From: Marinifilum flexuosum
GTDB lineage: Bacteria > Bacteroidota > Bacteroidia > Bacteroidales > Marinifilaceae
Direction: 5' to 3'
NCBI RefSeq assembly: GCF_003610555.1
Contig: NZ_RAPQ01000008.1
Coordinates: 488,490 to 552,489 of the forward strand
Length of the DNA stretch: 64,000 nucleotides
Part shown: one piece after another, positions 26,086 to 43,900 of the stretch
Layout of the letters: each line of letters starts with the position of its first letter
Numbering within the stretch: position 1 is the stretch's first letter
The notes under the pieces: generated by a model
Told to the model about the DNA's origin: nothing
What the model saw: the letters and a program-made list of their open reading frames with translations, nothing else
The model's database searches: none
Made by a program: the position numbers and the translations under genes

Positions 26086-26406
26086 ATGGAATTAAAAGAT
26101 TTTATAAAGAACTCTTTAGTCGAAATTGTGAATGGAGTTAGAGAAGCTCAAGAAGCAACAAAAGAACTTGGCGCAACTGTTAGCCCTGAAATTAATAGGC
26201 GAGCGACAACTGTGTCATCTGAGAATATAAGAACTGTTGAATTTAATGTTGCAGTAACAACAACTGATGAGGCAAAAGCTGGAGCAGGGATAAAAGTTGC
26301 TAGTATTTTAAAAGTTGGTGGAGATGTTAAAGAGATCAATTCATCTGTAAGTACAATTCGTTTTGAGATACCAATAGTACTTCCTTTATGTCAAGAATTG
26401 AATTAA
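26086..26406 (+). CDS. Trypco2-like small protein
   Basis: 106 residues. The layout matches the trypsin-co-occurring domain 2: an N-terminal helix (LKDFIKNSLVEIVNGVREAQEATKEL), then a beta strand FNVAVTTT, a Gly-rich turn AGAGIKVASILKVGG and a final strand STIRFEIPIVLP. Trypco2 modules are known as small adaptor-like domains in predicted bacterial conflict systems with trypsin-like proteases. No protease or effector is beside it here. The call is by pattern recall, so moderate. Confidence 0.55.
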   Translation: MELKDFIKNSLVEIVNGVREAQEATKELGATVSPEINRRATTVSSENIRTVEFNVAVTTTDEAKAGAGIKVASILKVGGDVKEINSSVSTIRFEIPIVLPLCQELN

Positions 26407-26795: not shown

Positions 26796-27482
26796 ATGGC
26801 AACATTATTGAAAAATAGCATGTCATCGGAAACTCAAATCACTTATGCCGAAAGACATGTTCGTTTGTGTCAGCAAACCAATGGTGCTGAAAGTTTGGTA
26901 AGCAACATTCAGCCCAAAATCGAGAATCTTGAAATTCAAATCAAAAATCGAGTACAGAAAGTAAAGGCACGTTATGCGGCCTACGATGCAATTGTTCTAA
27001 AAGATAGTCTTTTAGATGATTGTATTAAAAACTTGGTGGGTAGTGTAAAGCAGTTCGATAGAAGTAATCCTGGTCGATCGGTGTTCAATCAACTTTTTCC
27101 TGATGGAAAACCATCAAACATTACCAATGCTTCCTATTCCAAAGAGGTTGAAATTGCTGAACAATTGTTATTTCGTTTACAATCTTTGGGCGAAGGGCAT
27201 GTTCTGCTATCGCATGTTGAATTGTTGAAGAATGCCATTGCTGCATCGCGAGAAGCAATTGCATTTCACAATGAGAAAAAAACCGAAGAAAAAGTGGCTG
27301 TTGCCAATGAGGAACTGGCTCAGTATGAATTGCAAAAGCAATACGAATTCAACAGTTTAGATGCAACCAAGTTGTTTGGAAAGAATTATGCCAACCGTCT
27401 GTTTCCGAAATTAACAAACGGAAAGAAAAAGGTGGCAGAGGAAGTTGTAGAAGAAGTAGAAAGTCCTGCCAATGAAGAATAG
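26796..27482 (+). CDS. Unrecognised helical protein linked to a palindromic array
   Basis: 228 residues, predicted mostly alpha-helical with heptad-like stretches (IQPKIENLEIQIKNRVQKVKARY, about 45-67; EEKVAVANEELAQYELQKQYEF, about 167-188). It has a Lys-rich region after RLFPKLTNGKKK and an acidic tail EEVVEEVESPANEE. There is no signal peptide, membrane segment or enzyme motif. I do not recognise the family. A degraded copy of its last 60 codons or so plus 3' flank lies at 29900-30070, and its stop is followed 40 bp later by a palindromic array. The gene and its 3' palindrome therefore travelled together at least once. Confidence 0.75.
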   Translation: MATLLKNSMSSETQITYAERHVRLCQQTNGAESLVSNIQPKIENLEIQIKNRVQKVKARYAAYDAIVLKDSLLDDCIKNLVGSVKQFDRSNPGRSVFNQLFPDGKPSNITNASYSKEVEIAEQLLFRLQSLGEGHVLLSHVELLKNAIAASREAIAFHNEKKTEEKVAVANEELAQYELQKQYEFNSLDATKLFGKNYANRLFPKLTNGKKKVAEEVVEEVESPANEE

Positions 27483-27520
27483 TTATTTTATGCCTAAAAA
27501 TGAGTTGTTTATATATGTTA

Positions 27521-27807
27521 ATGCACTTCAGACCGTCTGAAGTGCATTTTCTTTTATGGCAGTGTGCATCAGACGTTCTGAACAAGGCTGCCACAAATGG
27601 GAGAGCAGTTCAGACGCTCTGAACTGTATTGCCACAACAGGACAGAGTACCTCAGACGGTCTGAAGTGTATTTCCACAAATGGCAGAGTAGTTCAGACGC
27701 TCTGAACAAGACTGCCACAAATGGCAGAGCACATCAGATGCTCTGAACTGCATTGCCACGAAAGTTAAAGCACTTCAAATGATCTGAACTGCTCTATCTC
27801 AAATAGA
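27521..27807. repeat. Alternating palindrome array, 41-42 bp period (two half-units)
   Basis: Seven A-type palindromes (core TCAGA-NNN-TCTGA) are centred at about 27534, 27575, 27616, 27658, 27699, 27740 and 27781. Between them lie B-type palindromes (best CTGCCA-CAAA-TGGCAG at 27712-27727; last CTAT-5-ATAG at 27794-27806). Centres are about 20.5 bp apart. The first A unit has 13-bp arms (ATGCACTTCAGAC / GTCTGAAGTGCAT). Arms change in step: C-G in unit 1 is G-C in unit 3 (CAGTTCAGA / TCTGAACTG). There is no T-tract and no cas gene. Confidence 0.8.
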
Positions 27808-27955
27808 AAGCAGCTTCCAACAAAAAACGCTGAAATTCATTAATAAGTAGAAAAAAATGATGTATTTTCGGGAAATTTTTAGTCCCAATTATCACGCACT
27901 TATAAATGGGCTAAGAATTGCAAAATTGTCGGCGATAGAAAACAAGAAAAACGAG

Positions 27956-28666
27956 ATGAAGAATTTATCCATAATTACACCAGTAAAAGATTCCTTACAT
28001 ACTACCAAGGATACCATTAAAGCTGTTGCAAAATCAACAGTTTCATTTCCTTACAAAATTTATAACGATTTTAGTACAAAGGAAACTACAAAGTATCTTG
28101 ACAAGCACCAAGAAAGCTTGAACTATACTTTGGTAAATCTGGAGGATATTACCAATACGCCATCCCCAAATTATAAATTGGTTCTTCAGATAGCACAGCA
28201 AGAGGCCATAAAAAATGAGTCGGGGCTATTGATTATTGAATCGGATGTGATGGTAAAACCAGATACGATTGAACAATTGTTTAAGCACAGCAAGGAGCTT
28301 GATTCTTGTGGAATGGTAGCTTCTGTAACGGTTGACCGCGATGAGAAATACAATTTCCCGTACAACTTTGTAAAAGAATCAGATCCGGAGATTATGGAAA
28401 CCAGTAAAAGATTGAGCTTTTGCTGTACATTAATTACTTTGGATTATTTGAAAGCATTTGATTTTAGAGAGCTGTCGGATGGAAAGGATTGGTTTGATGT
28501 GTACATTTCGAAAATGTCGCGAAAGCTAGGCTTTAAAAATTACATTCTTCGCAAACATACGGTTTTACACTTGCCACACAGTAGCCGACCATGGAAACAA
28601 TTGAAGTATGATAATCCGTTGAAGTATTATTTCTTGAAGTTTATTAAGGGAAGAGATAAGATTTAA
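27956..28666 (+). CDS. Glycosyltransferase family 2-like protein
   Basis: 236 residues from the ATG at 27956, which places the nucleotide-sugar-binding strand LSIITPVKDS at residues 3-12 as in GT2 enzymes. An in-frame ATG at 27857 would add 33 residues that do not look like part of the fold. Further marks: LLIIESDVMVKPDTIEQL (an ESD in place of the usual DxD) and, near the end, LRKHTVLHLPHSSRPWKQLKY. It probably adds a sugar to LPS or another glycan. A strong terminator follows. A Kdo/WaaP-type kinase is the next gene, convergent. Confidence 0.75.
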   Translation: MKNLSIITPVKDSLHTTKDTIKAVAKSTVSFPYKIYNDFSTKETTKYLDKHQESLNYTLVNLEDITNTPSPNYKLVLQIAQQEAIKNESGLLIIESDVMVKPDTIEQLFKHSKELDSCGMVASVTVDRDEKYNFPYNFVKESDPEIMETSKRLSFCCTLITLDYLKAFDFRELSDGKDWFDVYISKMSRKLGFKNYILRKHTVLHLPHSSRPWKQLKYDNPLKYYFLKFIKGRDKI

Positions 28667-29824: not shown

Positions 29825-29899
29825 AATATTCTTAAAGTATGGCGTAAAACTAATAAGAATTTGCTGAATTATTTAGGATGTTAACCTGGATTTATTCTA

Positions 29900-30070
29900 T
29901 CAAACTGTTTGAAAGAGCTATGCCAACCCCCTGTTTCCGAAGTTTACTAACAGAAAGAAATGGTAGATAAAGAAGTTGTAGAGGGACCGAAGTAGCAATC
30001 GGAGCAAGAGTTGTTTACATGTATTAATGCACCTCAGAGCCCCTGAGGTGCATTGCTGTATGCAATATGA
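29900..30070 (+). pseudogene. Degraded 3' end of a paralogue of the 26796-27482 gene plus its palindrome
   Basis: 29900-29990 aligns with the C-terminal coding region of the helical protein: TATGCCAACC...CTGTTTCCGAA, ACAGAAAGAAA for ACGGAAAGAAA, and AGAAGTTGTAGA for GGAAGTTGTAGA. It has early stops and no upstream part. The 3' flank is also shared: GAGTTGTTTA...TTAATGCAC runs into a 27-bp palindrome at 30027-30053 (ATGCACCTCAG / CTGAGGTGCAT). A second small palindrome TTGC-TGTA-TGCAA follows at about 30053-30065. Only the end of the gene and one or two repeat units remain. Confidence 0.7.
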
Positions 30071-34064: not shown

Positions 34065-34736
34065 ATGGGAAACAAACTAAATGATCCGATAGCAAGACTA
34101 ATGGGCTTGCGATACAAATCACATCCATGGCATGGATTGGATATCGGAGATAATGCGCCAGAATCGGTAATGGCATTTATCGAGATGGTTCCAACAGATA
34201 CCGTTAAATACGAGGTGGATAAGATAAGCGGATATCTTAAAATTGATCGTCCGCAGAAGTACTCGAATGTAGTTCCTGCCTTATACGGATTTTTACCACA
34301 AACTTATTGTGGCGATTCTGTTGGAGAATACTGTAGCGAGCAGTCGGGAAAGCCTGGGATTAAAGGTGATGCTGATCCTTTGGATATTTGTATCCTTACT
34401 GAAAAATCGATCTCTCATGGAGATATTATTGCAGAGGTTCGTCCGATTGGAGGTTTTAGAATGATTGATGGGAACGAAGCGGATGATAAAATTATTGCGG
34501 TTTTGATTAACGATGCCACTTACGGCCAGTTTACTGATATCAAGTGTATGCCAGATGTAATTGTAGACCGTTTGAAGCATTATTTCCTAACCTATAAGGA
34601 TATGCCAGGTTTAGATCGTCAGGCAGAAATTACACATACTTATGGTGTTGAAGAAGCACATGAGGTAATTAGCCGATCGATGAATGACTACAAAACCAGA
34701 TTCGAGAATTTGGAAGACATTTTGAAACATGTTTAA
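34065..34736 (+). CDS. ppa: Inorganic pyrophosphatase, family I
   Basis: 223 residues from the ATG at 34065, which gives the usual Bacteroidetes start (MGNKLNDPIARLMGLRYKSHPWHG). An in-frame ATG at 33921 would add 48 residues with no family match, though it cannot be excluded. Catalytic landmarks: VKYEVDKISGYLKIDRP, YGFLPQTYC, the Asp-rich GDADPLDICIL, and DDKIIAV. It hydrolyses PPi to drive biosynthesis. The terminator follows 50 bp later. Confidence 0.9.
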   Translation: MGNKLNDPIARLMGLRYKSHPWHGLDIGDNAPESVMAFIEMVPTDTVKYEVDKISGYLKIDRPQKYSNVVPALYGFLPQTYCGDSVGEYCSEQSGKPGIKGDADPLDICILTEKSISHGDIIAEVRPIGGFRMIDGNEADDKIIAVLINDATYGQFTDIKCMPDVIVDRLKHYFLTYKDMPGLDRQAEITHTYGVEEAHEVISRSMNDYKTRFENLEDILKHV

Positions 34737-34786
34737 GCAGTGATCAGTTAGCAGGAAACAGTTAACAATGATCAGTTCATGATATT

Positions 34787-34816
34787 AAGCGATGGCCTTT
34801 GGGTTGTCGCTTTTTT
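34787..34816 (+). terminator. Intrinsic terminator of ppa
   Basis: AGCGATGGCC pairs with GGGTTGTCGCT (ten pairs including G-U) and is followed by six T at 34811-34816. Confidence 0.75.
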
Positions 34817-34932
34817 GCTGTGTAAAGTCCACTACTTAGGAATCAGGTATATCATGCAGGTTATTAATAATTATCACAGTTTCTCTTAAAGCACACCCAA
34901 TAACAATCGGGACTGAAATTTAAATGGGATAA

Positions 34933-34972
34933 TAAAAATCCCGAACCTCCAATTGATCAGGAAGTCCGGGAT
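34933..34972 (-). terminator. Intrinsic terminator of the amylase gene
   Basis: On the minus strand a 13-bp stem with two G-U pairs (ATCCCGGACTTCC / GGAGGTTCGGGAT, 9-nt loop) is followed by a T-run, 20 bp beyond the stop codon at 34993. Confidence 0.85.
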
Positions 34973-34992
34973 AAACTTGATGTATTGATATT

Positions 34993-37900
34993 TTAAATTT
35001 TCAGTATTCGAATGCTTTTTCCTCCTACAACTTTAAACAAGTACATGCCAGGTTTACAATCGGAAAGGTCAAATACCTCCTTATTGTTTTGTACATCTTT
35101 AATAAGAATCATTTTTCCCAGCTGATTGTATAATGCTATTTTATCTCCCCTTTGCAGGCCATCGATGGTTACTTTGCGTTGTACTGGGTTAGGATAGGCT
35201 TTTAGCTCAATTGATTTATTGATTCCATCATCAATACCCGTAACAACTTCAATGGTAATGATTTTGCTTACTTCTACAGGATTATAATTTTGATTTCCTT
35301 CCTGTGTAGCTGTAATTGTAAGTTCTCCAGCTTCCAGAATTGTGAGTAAATCACCTTCGATAAGAGCAATGTCTTCGTCAGAAATACTGTAGCTTACAGG
35401 CAAAGCAGTTTCAGCAATAGCAGTTAGCTGTACCTGGTCATCAACCATCAAAGAGCTTAAATCCTGATCCCAAACAATGTTCTGGTCAGCCTTATCTATA
35501 CTAATGCTGATAAGCTTACTTACCGAATTGTAGTTATCCGAATTGTTTGGCGTAAAGATCACCTCCACAGATTGCGCTCCCGCACCAGGAGTTGCCGATG
35601 GATTTGCAAAAGCAAAACTTCCATCAACATTAGCAGTACCACCAGATAAGGTAGATTCGCTCAAAGTCTGTCCGTAGGTGATTGCATCAGCTATTGGCCA
35701 AACACTCACTGTTGGAGTTGCCTTGCTTACGCTGATACCGATGGTTTCAGAAACAGTATTGTAGTTATCAGTATCACTTGGCGTGAAGATCACCTCCACA
35801 GATTGCGTTCCCGCATCAGGAGTTGCTGATGGATTGGTAAAAGTAAAGTTTCCCTCCACATTGGCTGTGCCACCTGATAGTGTAGATTCACTTAAGGACT
35901 GTCCGTAAGAAATTGCACTTGCAGTAGGCCAGTTAGTAACAACTGTCGATTCTTTGGTAACGCTAATGCTGATATTTCCCCTAACTGAATTGTAGTTGTC
36001 CGCATCCGAGGGAGTGAAGATCACCTCCACAGATTGTATCCCTGCATCAGGAGTAGCCGATGGATTTGCAAAAGCAAAGCTTCCATCCACATTGGCTGTA
36101 CCTCCTGTAAGGATTGATTCACTCAATGCCTGTCCGTAAGTAATTGTACCAGCCATTGGCCAAGCGCTTACAGTAACATTAGCTTTATCCACAGTAATGT
36201 TGATATTTCCGCTCACTGTATTGTGATTGCTGTTATCAGTTGGTGTAAAGATAATCTCTACAGATTGTGTTCCTGCGTTCAGAGTTGCTGATGGATTGGT
36301 AAAAGTAAAGTTTCCCTCCACATTGGCTGTGCCACCTGATAGTGTAGATTCACTTAAGGACTGTCCGTAAGAAATTGCACTTGCAGTAGGCCAGTTAGTA
36401 ACAACTGTCGATTCTTTGGTAACGCTAATGCTGATATTTCCCCTAACTGAATTGTAGTTGTCCGCATCCGAGGGAGTGAAGATCACCTCCACAGATTGTA
36501 TCCCTGCATCAGGAGTAGCCGATGGATTTGCAAAAGCAAAGCTTCCGTCCACATTGGCTGTACCTCCTGTAAGGATTGACTCGTTTAATGCCTGTCCGCA
36601 AGTAATTGCACCAGCCGTTGGCCAAGCGCTTACAGTCGCATCAGCTTTATCCACAGTGATGTTGATGTTTCCACTCACTGTATTGTAATTTCTGTTATCA
36701 GTTGGTGTGAATGTTACCTCTACAGATTGAGTTCCTGCGTTCGGAGTAGCAGAAGGATTTGCAAAAGCAAAGCTTCCGTCCACATTGGCTGTACCTCCCG
36801 TAAGAGTTGACTCGCTTAATGCTTGTCCGTAGGTGATTGTACTTGCAGCTGGCCAAGCGCTTACAGTCACATCCGCTTTATCCACAGTGATGTTGATATT
36901 TCCGCTCACTGTATTGTGATTGCTGTTATCGGTTGGCGTGAAAATTACCTCCACAGATTGCGTTCCCGCATCAGGAGTTGCTGATGGATTTGCAAAAGCA
37001 AAGCTTCCGTCCACACTGGCAGTACCTCCCGTAAGGATTGATTCACTCAATGCTTGTCCGTAAGTAATTGCACCAGCTGTTGGCCAAGCGCTTACAGTCG
37101 CATCAGCTTTATCCACAGTGATGTTGATGTTTCCACTCACTGTATTGTAATTTCTGTTATCAGTTGGTGTGAATGTTACCTCTACAGATTGAGTTCCTGC
37201 GTTCGGAGTAGCAGAAGGATTTGCAAAAGCAAAGCTTCCGTCCACATTGGCAGTTCCTCCTGTAAGGATTGATTCACTCAATGCCTGTCCGTAGGTGATT
37301 GTACCAGCCGCTGGCCAAGCGTTTACAGTCGCATCAGCTTTATCAACAGTGATATTGATATTTCCACTCACTGTATTGTAATTACTGTTATCGGTTGATG
37401 TAAAGATAATCTCTACAGATTGTGTTCCTGCGTTCGGCGTTGCAGAAGGATTTGCAAAAGCAAAGCTTCCGTCCACATTGGCAATTCCTCCTGTAAGGAT
37501 TGATTCACTCAATGCTTGTCCGTAAGTAATTGTACCAGCCTCTGGCCAAGCGCTTACAGTCGCATCCGCTTTATCCACAGTGATGTTAATATTTCCGCTC
37601 ACTGTATTGTAATTGCTGTTATCAGTTGGTGTAAAGATAATCTCTACAGATTGTGTTCCTGCGTTCGGAGTAGCAGAAGGATTTGCAAAAGCAAAGCTAC
37701 CGTCCACATTGGCTGTACCTCCTGTAAGGATTGATTCACTCAATGTCTGCCCGTAAGTAATTGTACTTGCCGTTGGCCACACGCTCACAGTAGCATCCGC
37801 TTTATCAACAATGATGTTGATGTTTCCACTCACTGTATTGTAATTGCTGTTATCTGTTGGCGTGAATGTTACCTCTACAGATTGTGTTCCCGCATCGGGA

Positions 37901-40900
37901 GTAGAAGAAGGATTTGCAAAAGCAAAGCTTCCATCCACATTGGCAGTTCCTCCCTTATGGATCGACTCGCTCAAAGTTTGTCCATAGGTAATTGTACTTG
38001 CGGTTGGCCATGTGCTTACAGTCGCATCAGCTTTATCCACAGTGATGTTGATATTTCCGCTCACCGTATTGTAATTGCTGTCATCAGTAGGTGTAAAGAT
38101 GATCTCTACAGATTGTGTTCCTGCGTTCGGCGTTGCAGAAGGATTTGCAAAAGCAAAGCTACCGTCCACATTGGCTGTACCTCCTGTAAGGATTGATTCA
38201 CTCAATGTCTGCCCGTAAGTAATTGTACTTGCCGTTGGCCACACGCTCACAGTAGCATCCGCTTTATCAACAATGATGTTGATGTTTCCACTCACCGTAT
38301 TGTAATTGCTGTTATCAGTTGGTGTGAATGTTACCTCTACAGATTGAGTTCCTGCGTTCAGAGTAGCAGAAGGATTTGCAAAAGCAAAGCTTCCGTCCAC
38401 ACTGGCTGTTCCTTCTGTAAGGATCGACTCGCTCAATGCTTGTCCGTAAGTAATTGTACTTGCAGCTGGCCAAGCGCTTACAGTCACATCCGCTTTATCC
38501 ACAGTGATGTTGATATTTCCGCTCACTGTATTGTAATTGCTGTTATCGGTTGGCGTGAAAATTACCTCCACAGATTGCGTTCCCGCATCAGGAGTTGCTG
38601 ATGGATTTGCAAAAGCAAAGCTTCCGTCCACACTGGCAGTACCTCCCGTAAGGATTGATTCACTCAATGCTTGTCCGTAAGTAATTGCACCAGCTGTTGG
38701 CCATACGCTTACAATAATATCCGCTTTATCAACAATGATGTTGATGTTTCCACTCATATTGTAATTACTAGCATCAGTAGGTGTAAAGATGATCTCTACA
38801 GATTGAGTTCCTGCGTTCGGAGTAGCAGAAGGATTTGCAAAAGCAAAGCTTCCGTCCACATTGGCTGTACCTCCCGTAAGAGTTGACTCGCTTAATGCTT
38901 GTCCGTAGGTGATTGTACTTGCAGCTGGCCAAGCGCTTACAGTCACATCCGCTTTATCCACAGTGATGTTGATATTTCCGCTCACTGTATTGTGATTGCT
39001 GTTATCAGTTGGTGTAAAGATGATCTCTACAGATTGTGTTCCTGCGTTCGGAGTAGCCGATGGATTTGCAAAAGCAAAGCTTCCGTCCACACTGGCAGTA
39101 CCTCCCGTAAGGATCGACTCGCTCAATGCTTGTCCGTAAGTAATTGTACCAGCCATTGGCCAAGCGCTTACAGTAACATCAGCTTTATCCACAGTGATGT
39201 TGATATTTCCACTCACTGTATTGTAATTGCTGTTATCTGTTGGCGTGAATGTTACCTCTACAGATTGTGTTCCCGCATCGGGAGTAGAAGAAGGATTTGC
39301 AAAAGCAAAGCTTCCGTCCACATTGGCTGTTCCTCCTGTAAGGATTGATTCACTCAATGTCTGCCCGTAAGCAATCGTACTTGCCAATGGCCAAGCGCTT
39401 ACAGTGGCATCAGCTTTATCCACAGTAATGTTGATATTTCCGCTCACCGTATTGTAATTGCTGTTATCAGTTGGTGTGAATGTTACCTCTACAGATTGTG
39501 TTCCTGCGTTCGGAGTTGCAGAAGGATTTGCAAAAGCAAAGCTTCCATCCACACTGGCAGTTCCTCCTGATAAGGTAGATTCACTCAATACCTGTCCGAA
39601 GGTAATTGTACCAGCTGTTGGCCATACGCTTACAGTAACATCAGCTTTATCCACAGTGATGTTGATATTTCCACTCACTGTATTGTAATTGCTGTTATCT
39701 GTTGGCGTGAATGTTACCTCTACAGATTGTGTTCCCGCATCGGGAGTAGAAGAAGGATTTGCAAAAGCAAAGCTTCCGTCCACATTGGCTGTTCCTCCTG
39801 TAAGGATTGATTCACTCAATGTCTGCCCGTAAGCAATCGTACTTGCCAATGGCCAAGCGCTTACAGTGGCATCAGCTTTATCCACAGTGATGTTGATATT
39901 TCCGCTCACTGTATTGTAATTGCTGTTATCTGTTGGCGTGAAAATTACCTCTACAGATTGTGTTCCTGCGTTTGGCGTTGCAGAAGGATTTGCAAAAGCA
40001 AAGCTTCCGTCCACATTGGCAGTTCCTCCTGTAAGGATTGATTCACTCAATGCTTGTCCGTAAGTAATTGTACCAGCCTCTGGCCAAGCGCTTACAGTCG
40101 CATCCGCTTTATCAACAGTAATGTTGATATTTCCACTTACAGTATTGTAATTGCTGTTATCAGTTGGTGTAAAGATAATCTCTACAGCTTGAGTTCCAGC
40201 ATCAGGAGTAGCCGATGGATTTGCAAAAGCAAAGCTTCCGTCCACATTAGCTGTTCCTCCTGTCAGGATCGACTCGCTCAATGTTTGTCCGTAAGTAATT
40301 GTGCTAGCTGTTGGCCAAGTGCTTACCGTTGGTGTTGCTTTGTTGACAGTTAGTTTTCCCGGGACATAAGTTATGTCGTAATGCGTAGAACTTAATCCTG
40401 AGGGAACAATATCATCGCCTTCTACATTAAAGCTTAAAGTTCCTTCCAAATCATCAGAAGTATGATCATGAACAAAGCCCTCATAAGTTACGGTGAAGTC
40501 AGGCAGAGGATCTCCATAGGTCATGCTGGCATCCTGTGCTGTGATTGTTAATGGATGCTGGATTGGATTTACACTAAGCGTGAACGAAAATTCTTCACTG
40601 GTATATTTTCCATCCGAGACTTGTGCTTTCACCTGTAAATCTCCAAAGAAATAGGGAGCAGGAGTGAGTGTAGAATTGCTGACCGTATAATTGTCGCCTC
40701 CCAGGTAAGTAAAAGTATAGACTGCTGCCGGATCATTATCATCATCCTTCACGGTAAACCACTCAGGAAGAAAAGTCAAACTGCTATTCTCATCAACAGA
40801 AATAGCCTGAACGCTTTCTATTGATGGTTGATGAAAGTTGGCTCTTGACAATTGGCGAGAGCAAAGAATTTTGTATTCGCCTCTTTTCAGGTAGTATTGC

Positions 40901-43900
40901 TGACTGGTGCTTGATACATTTATGTTGCTGCCATCTTCAAAGTTGTACCAGGTTCCTGTGGAGCCAAAGTGAGGGGTGATGTTGCCATCGCTTTCTCCAA
41001 AGTTTCCAATCACGATAAGTTGAAAGCCTTCATCCGATTTTGTTTTGCCATTTAAGGTGATGCGTTTCATTGCACCGGAAATGTCAAAATCCTGGGTCTG
41101 ATCATTATTATAAAGATTGTATGTATTTCGAAGATGAAACAGATCAGCATAGAATTCATACAGGCCTTTACGGTGTGCATTCTCGAAATAATCCCAGCGC
41201 ACTGGTTTCTTTCCGGTTCTTCCATTGTAATCAATACTGTAATCATAGCCCAGTTCTCCAAACTGCCAAACCATTCTTGCTCCCGGTAGGAGTAGGTTGA
41301 ATGCCGCCGCCGCTTTTAGTCTGGGAACGATAATTTGCAGTTGATCATCGGTAGGTTCCTGATATTTGTCAAACGATCCGGCATTGATATCCCTGCCATA
41401 TTTCATAGCTTTAAAAGCCAAGCGTTCTTCGTCGTGGCTTTCCATATAACTCATCAGGTTGGCGTATTGATAGGATATGTTTCGGTAGTAGGCTTGCGAA
41501 AGGTCGATATTACCACTCCATCCCATGGCAAGCTCTTCGTATTTTTCCGAGATTCCTTTTCCACCCCACATCAGGATTCCTTCGTTGGCCAATTCACTAT
41601 CTTCACTTGCATCAGCAAGGTGCTCAAAAACGGCAATTGTTCCAGGGTGCTTGCTTCTCATGCTACCAACCATTCTTTTGAGGATTCCAATGCGTTGAGC
41701 ATCGTATGTACTTCCCCAACTATCTTCAGGATAGCTTGTATTGCTGAATCCTTTCGTGAAATCAAATCGGAATCCATCAAAATGGTATTCGTCAATCCAG
41801 AAATTCAAAATAGAATCTACCAGGTTTTGAGTGTGTTCGCTGGTATGATTAAAGTCGGCTCCCCAATGTGCTCCCGGATTTTGAAAGTTGTGATTTTCAT
41901 TATACCATGGGTTATGCACCGCCGGACGGTTGTCTGTACTGTTCCAATACATTTTTGCCAACGGACTGGAATAAAAAGAGTGATTCAAGACCATGTCGTT
42001 AATTACCGCAATGCCTTTCTCGTGGGCCTGATCAATAAAACTTTTCAGATCATTCTTGGTGCCATAAGCTTTATCTGGCGCAAAGTAAAAGTTAGGATTG
42101 TAACCCCAGCTGTCGTTTCCTTCGAATTCACTTACCGGCATTAAATGAATGCAGTTGATCCCCATATCTTTAAGATAATCCAACTTTTCTGCGGCAGCTT
42201 TGTAGTTTCCTTCAGTCGTAAAATCGCGGATGTGAAGTTCATAAACATTTAAATCATTATGAGACGGAACAGTAAAATTACTAACCTGCCACTGGTAAGC
42301 AGACTGTCCGGTTTGCAAAACAGATGCACGATCGCTGGCGTTTCCGCTTGGATAGCTGATTAGCCCTGGATAGGTGCTTGATGAAATGTATTGATCATCC
42401 GGATCGCTCACCTTTTCGGTATAAGGATCGGCAAGCTTCAGGTAACCATCAATTAAATACTGGAAAACATATTCTTGTCCGGCAGTTAATCCTTCCAAAG
42501 TAATCCACCAGTAATTTCCATCCGTTGTTTTCTTCATTTTGCTGCTCTCGCTCGCACTCCAGTTGTTGAAATCACCCAATACGTGAACTACCGATTTGGC
42601 AGGAACAGATTGGCTGCCATATACATTTCCGTAACCATCTTTATAAGTGATGGAGGTAGGTGTATGCAGAATTAATGTTGCCTTGGTGTCGTCATCGGTC
42701 AGGCCTTCAATATCCTTATGGTAGATGATTCCTTTCTGTCCTGTTTTTACCCACGATGGCAGGTCTTCCACAGTAACAGACGAATAGGCTTCTATCGCAA
42801 TGGTTTTTTCCTTGACAGTACTGCCATTGTTTGCACGGATAAGAATCGTATGTGATCCTGCAGTTGTAAAACTATGGTTTACCGAGTTTGTTGTTACCGA
42901 CGAAGCTGTATGTATGGATTGGTTATCAGCGAATACTTCAACGCTTGCACTTTCGGAAGTGGTGAAATTGATCTCGAAAGAGGTTTCGGTTTCTACCGTC
43001 TTTTCCTGATCATTGGGATGGACGATGCTAATGTAAAATTCAGGGTCGGTTTCCAGGTAATAGTCCTTGTCCTCTTCATTTTTCTGGACAACTGATCCAT
43101 CTTGATTTCTGAAGAGTAAACCAATGCGAAACAGGTTTTCATTCTGGTCGCTGATTCCAAAATAAGTAGATGGAGTAAGTGTAATCTGCCATACTCCAGA
43201 TGATATTTCTGTTAGTTGTCCTTTGGTGTTGTCTCCCCATTGTGCCTGACCTACGTAATCGGCAGTAGTTTTTCCCGGTCCCGAGGTAACGGCCCAACTG
43301 TGCATGTAAATACTGCTTGCAGCTTGCAATTTCTTTTCCGGGGCAATGCCTGGTCTGAAGGTGATGGTAATTTCATCCGATATTTTCGGAAGAGCCGGAC
43401 TGATCTCAATCCAATCGGGGATGCTGGCAGCTTGCAGAGACAGGCTGTAGTTGGATCCGCTGTTGTCCTCTTTTAAAGTGCCGTCGGCCGAACGGAAAAG
43501 AAATTCTAAACCGGTTACCTCTTCCCCCGGAAGCAGGTTGGCAAAATCAGAGGTGGGCGTAAAACTAAAGGTCCACTGGTTGGCAGAACTTCCCTGAGTC
43601 ATGATGCCCACATTATCATCTTCCCCCCAGTTTCCTATCCATTCTTTTTCCCCGGATGTCGTGCTTACGCCATAATGCAGATACACTTTTGATGCATTTT
43701 CAAGAGCAGTTCCTTTTGCATTAAAAGTAATGCTCACTTGTTGGTCTGCAGATGGATTTTCCGGAGAAGTTACCACCACCGGAGGATCGGCAATTGTAAT
43801 GCTTACCGTATAGTCTTTGGTTGAATTGTTTTCTGCCGTAAGTGTGTAGGTTTGTGGATTTGTAAAATCTCTTGCTACACCTGAAAGGGGAGAGATAGAA

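Follow-up and report, generated by a model that had tools for sequence, protein, structure and literature searches.

In the centromere and iteron arrays of ParB-parS, ParR-parC and plasmid iterons, a gene stands beside phased repeats, the letters of which vary from system to system. In REP-RAYT systems the partner gene likewise has similar palindromes alongside. The arrays that we describe here resemble REP-RAYT in logic and the centromere and iteron arrays in geometry. With the latter they share a gene next to a phased-repeat array and letters private to each system; they differ in being chromosomal, in having several paralogs per genome and in that no known binding domain was found. With REP/BIME elements, as presented in PMC3733652, they share intergenic palindromes with dispersed copies; REP stems carry, according to the same paper, a GTAG or CGTC tag at their base.

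We analysed a 64,000-nucleotide stretch of the Marinifilum flexuosum genome (the window), for which an array of alternating palindromes had been predicted. Arrays of this kind, their common period, their linkage to two gene families (on the 3′ side of one and the 5′ side of the other), their division into letter groups and their remote matches were all observed directly. In the open-licence literature (subscription papers and preprints lay outside this scope) neither arrays of this sort nor a function for DUF6261, one of the two linked families, turned up; the name DUF6261 does occur in one paper (PMC10376253). The array architecture and its proteins may represent a hitherto undescribed type of protein-DNA system.

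Results

The window array contains seven palindromes of the form TCAGA-N3-TCTGA, or close to it (A palindromes), centred at 27534, 27575, 27616, 27658, 27699, 27740 and 27781, that is, at spacings of 41, 41, 42, 41, 41 and 41 bp (Table 1). Scored with a detector that links successive palindrome centres lying 19.5-22.5 or 40-44 bp apart, the array reached 22.5, as compared with a mean of 3.6 and a maximum of 9.0 in 500 dinucleotide shuffles. None of 2000 shuffles in a second run reached this score, bearing out the seven A palindromes of the original prediction. It is the sole array detected in the 64 kb (637 windows), the best place without overlap with it scoring 8.5. About seven B palindromes had also been predicted, but they are clear in only three of the seven units (2, 4 and 5), where the arms TGCCA/TGGCA form at least four of five Watson-Crick pairs. 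The predicted 20.5-bp pitch does equal half of 41 bp; however, since any sequence repeating with period P that is dyad-symmetric about one centre must also be so about another at P/2, the geometry forces a half-period pitch, which is thus not independent evidence. The feature to be explained is the 41-42 bp period, which is common to arrays with unrelated letters. Above the tandem units there is a higher-order repeat of 124 bp. CRISPR, which has short palindromic repeats and regular spacing in common with the array, was ruled out, as unique spacers are absent and each of the seven units aligns along its whole length as a repeat copy.

Table 1. Coordinates of the array, its linked gene and related features in the window
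Feature	Position	Strand	Basis
Orphan gene, 228 aa, predicted all-helical; family 3′ flanks bear arrays	26796..27482	+	ORF, AlphaFold, profile searches
Palindrome 1, inverted repeat then TTTTCTTTT, intrinsic-terminator-like	27520..27555	+	sequence, RNA fold
Unit 1	27524..27564	no strand	sequence
Unit 2	27565..27605	no strand	sequence
Unit 3 (42 bp)	27606..27647	no strand	sequence
Unit 4	27648..27688	no strand	sequence
Unit 5	27689..27729	no strand	sequence
Unit 6	27730..27770	no strand	sequence
Unit 7, B half decayed	27771..27811	no strand	related unit at equivalent place in G001:C40
Relic, degenerate duplicate of the 3′ end of the orphan gene, including the hairpin	29836..30069	+	local alignment score 145, without a null run

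The array begins 38 nt past the stop codon of the orphan gene and stops short of a glycosyltransferase-like gene (27857-28666, + strand; the Pfam match is weak and below the cut-off). The orphan gene is 98% identical to a Marinifilum breve gene (L081). Its product matched no Pfam family at the cut-off, and the best NCBIfam and PHROG matches had E values of 0.011 and 0.047. Foldseek returned generic helical bundles only (best E 0.05, none at or below 0.001), and a profile search of the PDB with the family gave nothing useful, the best match being a designed knot protein (E 0.0073). Neither Pfam nor Foldseek revealed a recognisable DNA-binding domain. In the AlphaFold model (mean pLDDT 82.9), two 59-residue helices are each preceded by a short helix, a predicted layout that hints at internal duplication. 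The neighbouring genes are comM-like, weakly Trypco2-like, glycosyltransferase-like, kinase-like and ferredoxin-like; within 3 kb, no neighbour recurs in more than 7 of 26 loci of the family. A small ORF upstream of the orphan gene (26086-26406) shows weak similarity, below the cut-off, to Trypsin-co-occurring domain 2 (E 0.0017). A known anti-phage defence system was rejected, as PADLOC gave no match for five proteins.

A scan of the genome collection found the orphan family at 27 loci. One scan of viral contigs gave no relatives among 257 pattern stretches; as far as that scan tells, the family is not virus-borne. To measure periodicity without a preset spacing, we used a palindrome track over the 400 nt past the stop codon and lags from 25 to 65, at 26 loci (L081-L106; L107, a C-terminal fragment, was excluded from the flank counts). 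In the 3′ flanks the best lag was 40.5-43 in 22 of 26 cases, and exactly 42.0 in 19, as against 3 of 26 for the 5′ flanks. The mean autocorrelation of the 3′ flanks at lag 42.0 was 0.18, with an SD over lags of 0.024. The detector, set at 21/42 bp, was significant (p<=0.01) in 16 of 27 3′ flanks and at seven shifted spacings in 0-1 of 27; none of the 27 5′ flanks was significant. A score of at least 12 was reached by 12 of 27 3′ flanks versus 1 of 257 control genes, and among 11 earlier whole-genome loci, mostly overlapping the 27, eight beat all of 200 shuffles. The three that did not were L021 (the second family member of the M. flexuosum genome, where no array was detectable), L030 and L031. 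This linkage of array and gene makes the neighbouring protein the first candidate for binding. At two places, L034 (genome G015) and L107 (Labilibaculum manganireducens), only C-terminal fragments of about 50 codons are present, the rest of the gene being absent; behind the L107 fragment palindromes recur at 21 bp without reaching significance, an arrangement that recalls the window relic.

A second family, DUF6261 (PF19775), has arrays of the same kind. Unlike the orphan family it is a known Pfam family, and its arrays lie on the 5′ side. It is present in 16 of 57 relatives searched, with 96 matches overall, up to 12 copies in a single genome and 12 in that of M. flexuosum. We used 30 of the 96 matches and inspected ten further copies from that genome separately; L173, with its short 5′ flank, was excluded from the 5′ counts. 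The best lag was 40.5-43 in 18 of 29 5′ flanks versus 0 of 29 3′ flanks, and the detector was significant (p<=0.01) in 13 of 29 5′ flanks versus 2 of 30 3′ flanks. In a separate run, 15 of 29 5′ flanks had arrays at the proper spacing versus 0-5 of 29 at shifted spacings. Among the 12 copies of the M. flexuosum genome, three have strong 5′ arrays (L162, 24.0; L197, 26.0; L199, 25.5), three have weak ones (L175, L202 and L203; p 0.020-0.027) and for six no array was seen.

Similar arrays are in fact found at many other places, although their absence elsewhere would have spoken against the original prediction. A 600-kb sample of the M. flexuosum genome contains L138 (24.5), L128 (21.0), L143 (13.5) and L115 (12.0); 10 of its 4740 windows score at least 12, and these include L112, which is AT-rich and was not counted as an array. 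A 200-kb sample of G015 contains L120 (20.0) and L118 (13.0), the latter on the 5′ side of a DUF6261 gene (E 6e-24) at a distance of about 400 nt. L143 lies on the 3′ side of a third orphan protein (p 0.004); L116, at the second member of that family, gave no significant array (p 0.55). A fourth orphan ORF has the L194 array (24.0) on its 5′ side, at about 150 nt. Profile comparison with hhalign showed the L143 protein, the window family and DUF6261 to be unrelated (probability 1% for DUF6261 versus the window family). A search for relics of the orphan family near the unlinked arrays L108-L127 gave nothing of weight. By eye, L128 and L194 apparently have three alternating palindrome types instead of two, and a higher-order period near 126-128 bp.

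Despite the common period, the letters of the arrays differ. Grouping by blastn divided 37 arrays (31 taken by a detector score of at least 9, and six others) into 20 letter groups, with a best lag of 41.0-42.5 in 31 of the 37, most of these arrays having been chosen by the detector. The 15 orphan-family arrays with a score of at least 9 form six letter groups, nine falling into one (GCAAGC and TGTAAG types). The letters TCAGACGCTCTGA of Marinifilum are replaced by TTCCCAAATTTGGGAA in a Labilibaculum relative (L082), the protein of which is 69% identical; this relative has the 512-aa upstream neighbour as well, but unrelated array letters, so a cognate reading would need a fast change of specificity. 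At a relative that is 33% identical (L105), the GCAAGC type is found again. We correlated proteins with letters for 23 arrays per family, collapsed at 75% protein identity to 14 and 17 arrays (L107 excluded). For the window family the letters tracked protein identity weakly (Mantel r 0.31, p 0.038, 14 arrays), and no correlation with protein similarity was found for DUF6261 (r 0.01, p 0.45, 17 arrays). Since letters track the protein weakly or not at all, we put binding forward as a hypothesis.

In four cases a remote place shares its letters with a gene-linked array, so that the same protein might serve several loci. The first is the place between hemH and trmO that carries the window letters (see below). 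In the second, the remote place is L138, which lies behind an RNase H gene; its match stands on the 5′ side of a DUF6261 gene, some 320 nt away (G000:C1:957k; 69% over 140 nt, E 1e-5), where the detector finds no array in M. flexuosum (G000; p 0.99) and the equivalent place in G002 scores 17.5. In the third, L128 matches the L194 array, and also G000:C6:3.2k, without an array by the detector (best 6.0). The fourth was predicted beforehand: L120 recurs at three other places in its genome, at one of which a short DUF6261 ORF follows some 450 nt downstream; neither of the remaining two has a DUF6261 match within 10 kb.

The core search suggested with the original prediction, for TCAGA-N3-TCTGA in the 5.17-Mb M. 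flexuosum genome, gave 13 forward sites, six in the window array, one in a second array (L013) and the rest elsewhere. A unit model (E <= 0.001; 150 of 2714 candidates scored) placed the letters at two loci, with seven units in the window array and six in the second, plus one reverse-strand match overlapping the window array. The second array is flanked by genes that we take to be trmO-like and hemH-like. At this place the TCAGA array is present in four genomes, and relatives have 7, 7, 6 and 2 units. The hemH array and the window array both have seven units and a 42-bp step in third place; a unit-by-unit copy is nevertheless unsupported, the identity order being reached or beaten by 1126 of 5040 permutations. 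In G003 the hemH array is kept and a search found no orphan-family gene; in G004 it is kept beside orphan-family genes of other letters. At the same place L063 (G002) and L067 (G011) have another repeat (CTCAAACAACTTGAG, CCCAAACATCTTGGG), of CTCAA or CCCAA type and about 22-23 bp by eye, which is not significant with the detector and was excluded from all counts; hemH of G002 is 97% identical.

Such dispersal would suit selfish or mobile palindromes, copied by or with the helical proteins by REP-RAYT logic and without function for the cell. Besides the same letters at remote places, this alternative, which we consider unlikely, would account for intergenic arrays between convergent genes or behind genes, and for the C-terminal gene remnants beside a hairpin or palindromes (those of L107 being not significant). 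However, the high copy number of REP elements is replaced here by a very low one, with the window letters at only two loci at E <= 0.001. No Y1 transposase lies beside the window array: Y1_Tnp matched none of the six proteins around it and seven places elsewhere in the genome, the nearest about 37.7 kb off. The helical proteins match no transposase model. GACG or CGTC does occur in five of the seven units, at the loop and not as an unpaired tag at the stem foot. The window system is set apart from REP-RAYT because the defining features examined, copy number and a Y1 partner, fail. Moreover, copying needs no common 41-42 bp period; REP-like copying explains the remote matches, not the period. 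The Y1 transposase gene some 37.7 kb away (L035, G000:C1:552541-555882) has short palindromes on both sides, of CCTCGGG..CCCGAGG and CCTCCAGATAAATCTGGAGG types by eye, which look like ordinary REP elements and are distinct from the arrays.

The original prediction read paired changes between the arms as selection on the hairpin or dyad and not on the sequence. We aligned 25 of 31 units with these letters (set A1): seven from the window, six from L013 and 12 from the hemH-trmO place of G003, G004 and G001, leaving out the last units of L013, L014, L017 and L015, the single L016 unit and the hairpin at 30026. In these 25 units from four genomes, 73.1% of cells were paired versus 73.5% in shuffles, and 9 cells had double changes versus 10.1. 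Because covariation does not rise above shuffles in the window array and its close relatives, compensatory change is rejected as proof here, and selection on the hairpin is unsupported. The C-G pair of unit 1 does face G-C in unit 3, but this is not evidential, as the pair is kept in 7 of 25 units; the same arm position in units 2, 6 and 7 has C opposite C. A C-G pair at 30027 for T-A in unit 1 is equally true to the letter. The hairpin concerned (30026-30054) is homologous to palindrome 1, without the T tract, and, since it sits inside the relic, the change is a difference between homologous hairpins, one from each copy of a gene end that was duplicated. The relic also has a weak C-terminal match to the orphan family (29913-29963, E 0.44). 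Throughout A1 the variation falls on the left arm, the right arm TCTGAA hardly changing.

Two further alignments were analysed in the same way. In the TGTAAGCTTACA set (A5; eight sequences, seven palindromes), 75.8% of cells were paired versus 76.6% in shuffles. Its core is Watson-Crick at G-C in 56 of 56 and at T-A in 53 of 56 cases, the exceptions being the seventh palindrome; four outer positions are Watson-Crick in 13, 24, 28 and 19 of 56, often unpaired and without covariation. A kept dyad core with failing outer pairs is as expected of protein-DNA sites. The GCAAGC set (A4, five sequences) was the only one of the three with excess pairing, for its A palindromes: 84.4% versus 81.6% (0 of 500 shuffles), with 7 double-change cells versus 2.9 (1 of 500). 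For the B palindromes we looked for convincing covariation and saw none. We read most palindromes as probable dyad cores of sequence type, with one or a few true hairpins among them.

This bears on whether the arrays act as RNA, that is, as a chain of hairpins in the UTR of the linked gene that would terminate, stabilise or regulate its transcript, perhaps bound by protein. The pairing excess in A4 and a preference for G-U over A-C mismatches (56 to 36 in 16 pooled arrays, p 0.047) leave room for RNA. Palindrome 1 of the window array also looks, by its sequence, like the intrinsic terminator of the orphan gene: a hairpin (27520-27548) followed by TTTTCTTTT. The + strand of the array folds strongly (z -9.6), pairing in the first A5 palindrome reaches 95.8% and includes compensatory changes, and the inner mismatches of the hemH arrays on this strand, 18 A-C versus 3 G-T, would be pairable in hemH-strand RNA, although the units share ancestry. 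On the other hand, folding of the minus strand is nearly as strong (z -8.3), covariation is absent from A1 and from A5 overall, units 2-7 lie beyond the terminator-like hairpin and single-stranded RNA needs no strict period. A terminator within the array is not general by a strict check (palindrome then TTTTT), which seven of 26 orphan-family loci passed (L107 excluded) and which misses the TTTTCTTTT tract of the window type. A known Rfam family was rejected for the window array, the best match, BTnc201, scoring 30.2 bits against a gathering score of 105. BTnc201 is a Bacteroides sRNA, and the sub-threshold likeness falls on the terminator region (27482-27557). RNA stems thus explain the first palindrome and perhaps A4, not the rest, and as a general account we find them distinctly unlikely. 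Of the two explanations offered by the original prediction, a row of dimeric sites remains the better, the chain of RNA stems being supported mainly at unit 1 and in one related set.

Ordinary tandem duplication with hairpin-templated correction, intergenic and functionless, would fit tandem units with a 124-bp higher-order repeat and the varying numbers of units at the equivalent place in relatives, but is improbable given one period over 20 letter groups, arrays on one side of two gene families and not the other, and their rarity at shifted spacings.

Discussion

A common period over unrelated letters, dyads, cores of sequence type and remote matches fit phased protein sites. We tentatively favour, at somewhat less than an even chance, reading the window array as a row of phased dyad sites, most likely the cognate binding platform of the adjoining helical protein. 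The period of 41-42 bp is approximately four helical turns, so that the dyad sites lie on one DNA face. As we picture it, dyad-symmetric DNA sites, phased at 41-42 bp, would be bound by the helical protein encoded alongside, which may bind as a dimer or as a pseudo-symmetric monomer. Binding could serve to regulate the protein's own gene, to anchor distant loci or to copy the array. Counting against this reading are the failure to recognise a DNA-binding domain, the unrelated letters of L082, the DUF6261 letters that do not track the protein, the gene copies for which no array was seen (L021 and six DUF6261 copies) and the hemH arrays of G003 and G004; the pairing excess of A4 and the G-U preference also tell on this side.

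Extended to Marinifilaceae and related Bacteroidota, this would mean that small-protein families, two at the least and perhaps four, each have dyad arrays of their own with a 41-42-bp period and private letters, shared with arrays elsewhere in the chromosome, and so form parallel, mutually insulated addressing systems; we give this, too, somewhat less than an even chance. The same geometry despite different letters suggests that something may measure 41-42 bp of DNA whatever the sequence. Two unrelated families that flank arrays on opposite sides provide a first handle on DUF6261 and on the window orphan family. The remote letter matches allow a sharp test: each protein is expected to bind the letters of its own array, both there and at the remote array, and not those of its paralogs.

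The window contains one other prominent repeat. At 35492-40326 there is a tandem repeat of 231/462 bp, with about 21 copies of 231 bp, and along the minus strand of the region around it (34701-41500) runs an open reading frame of 2168 codons; together they probably encode a large repeat protein.
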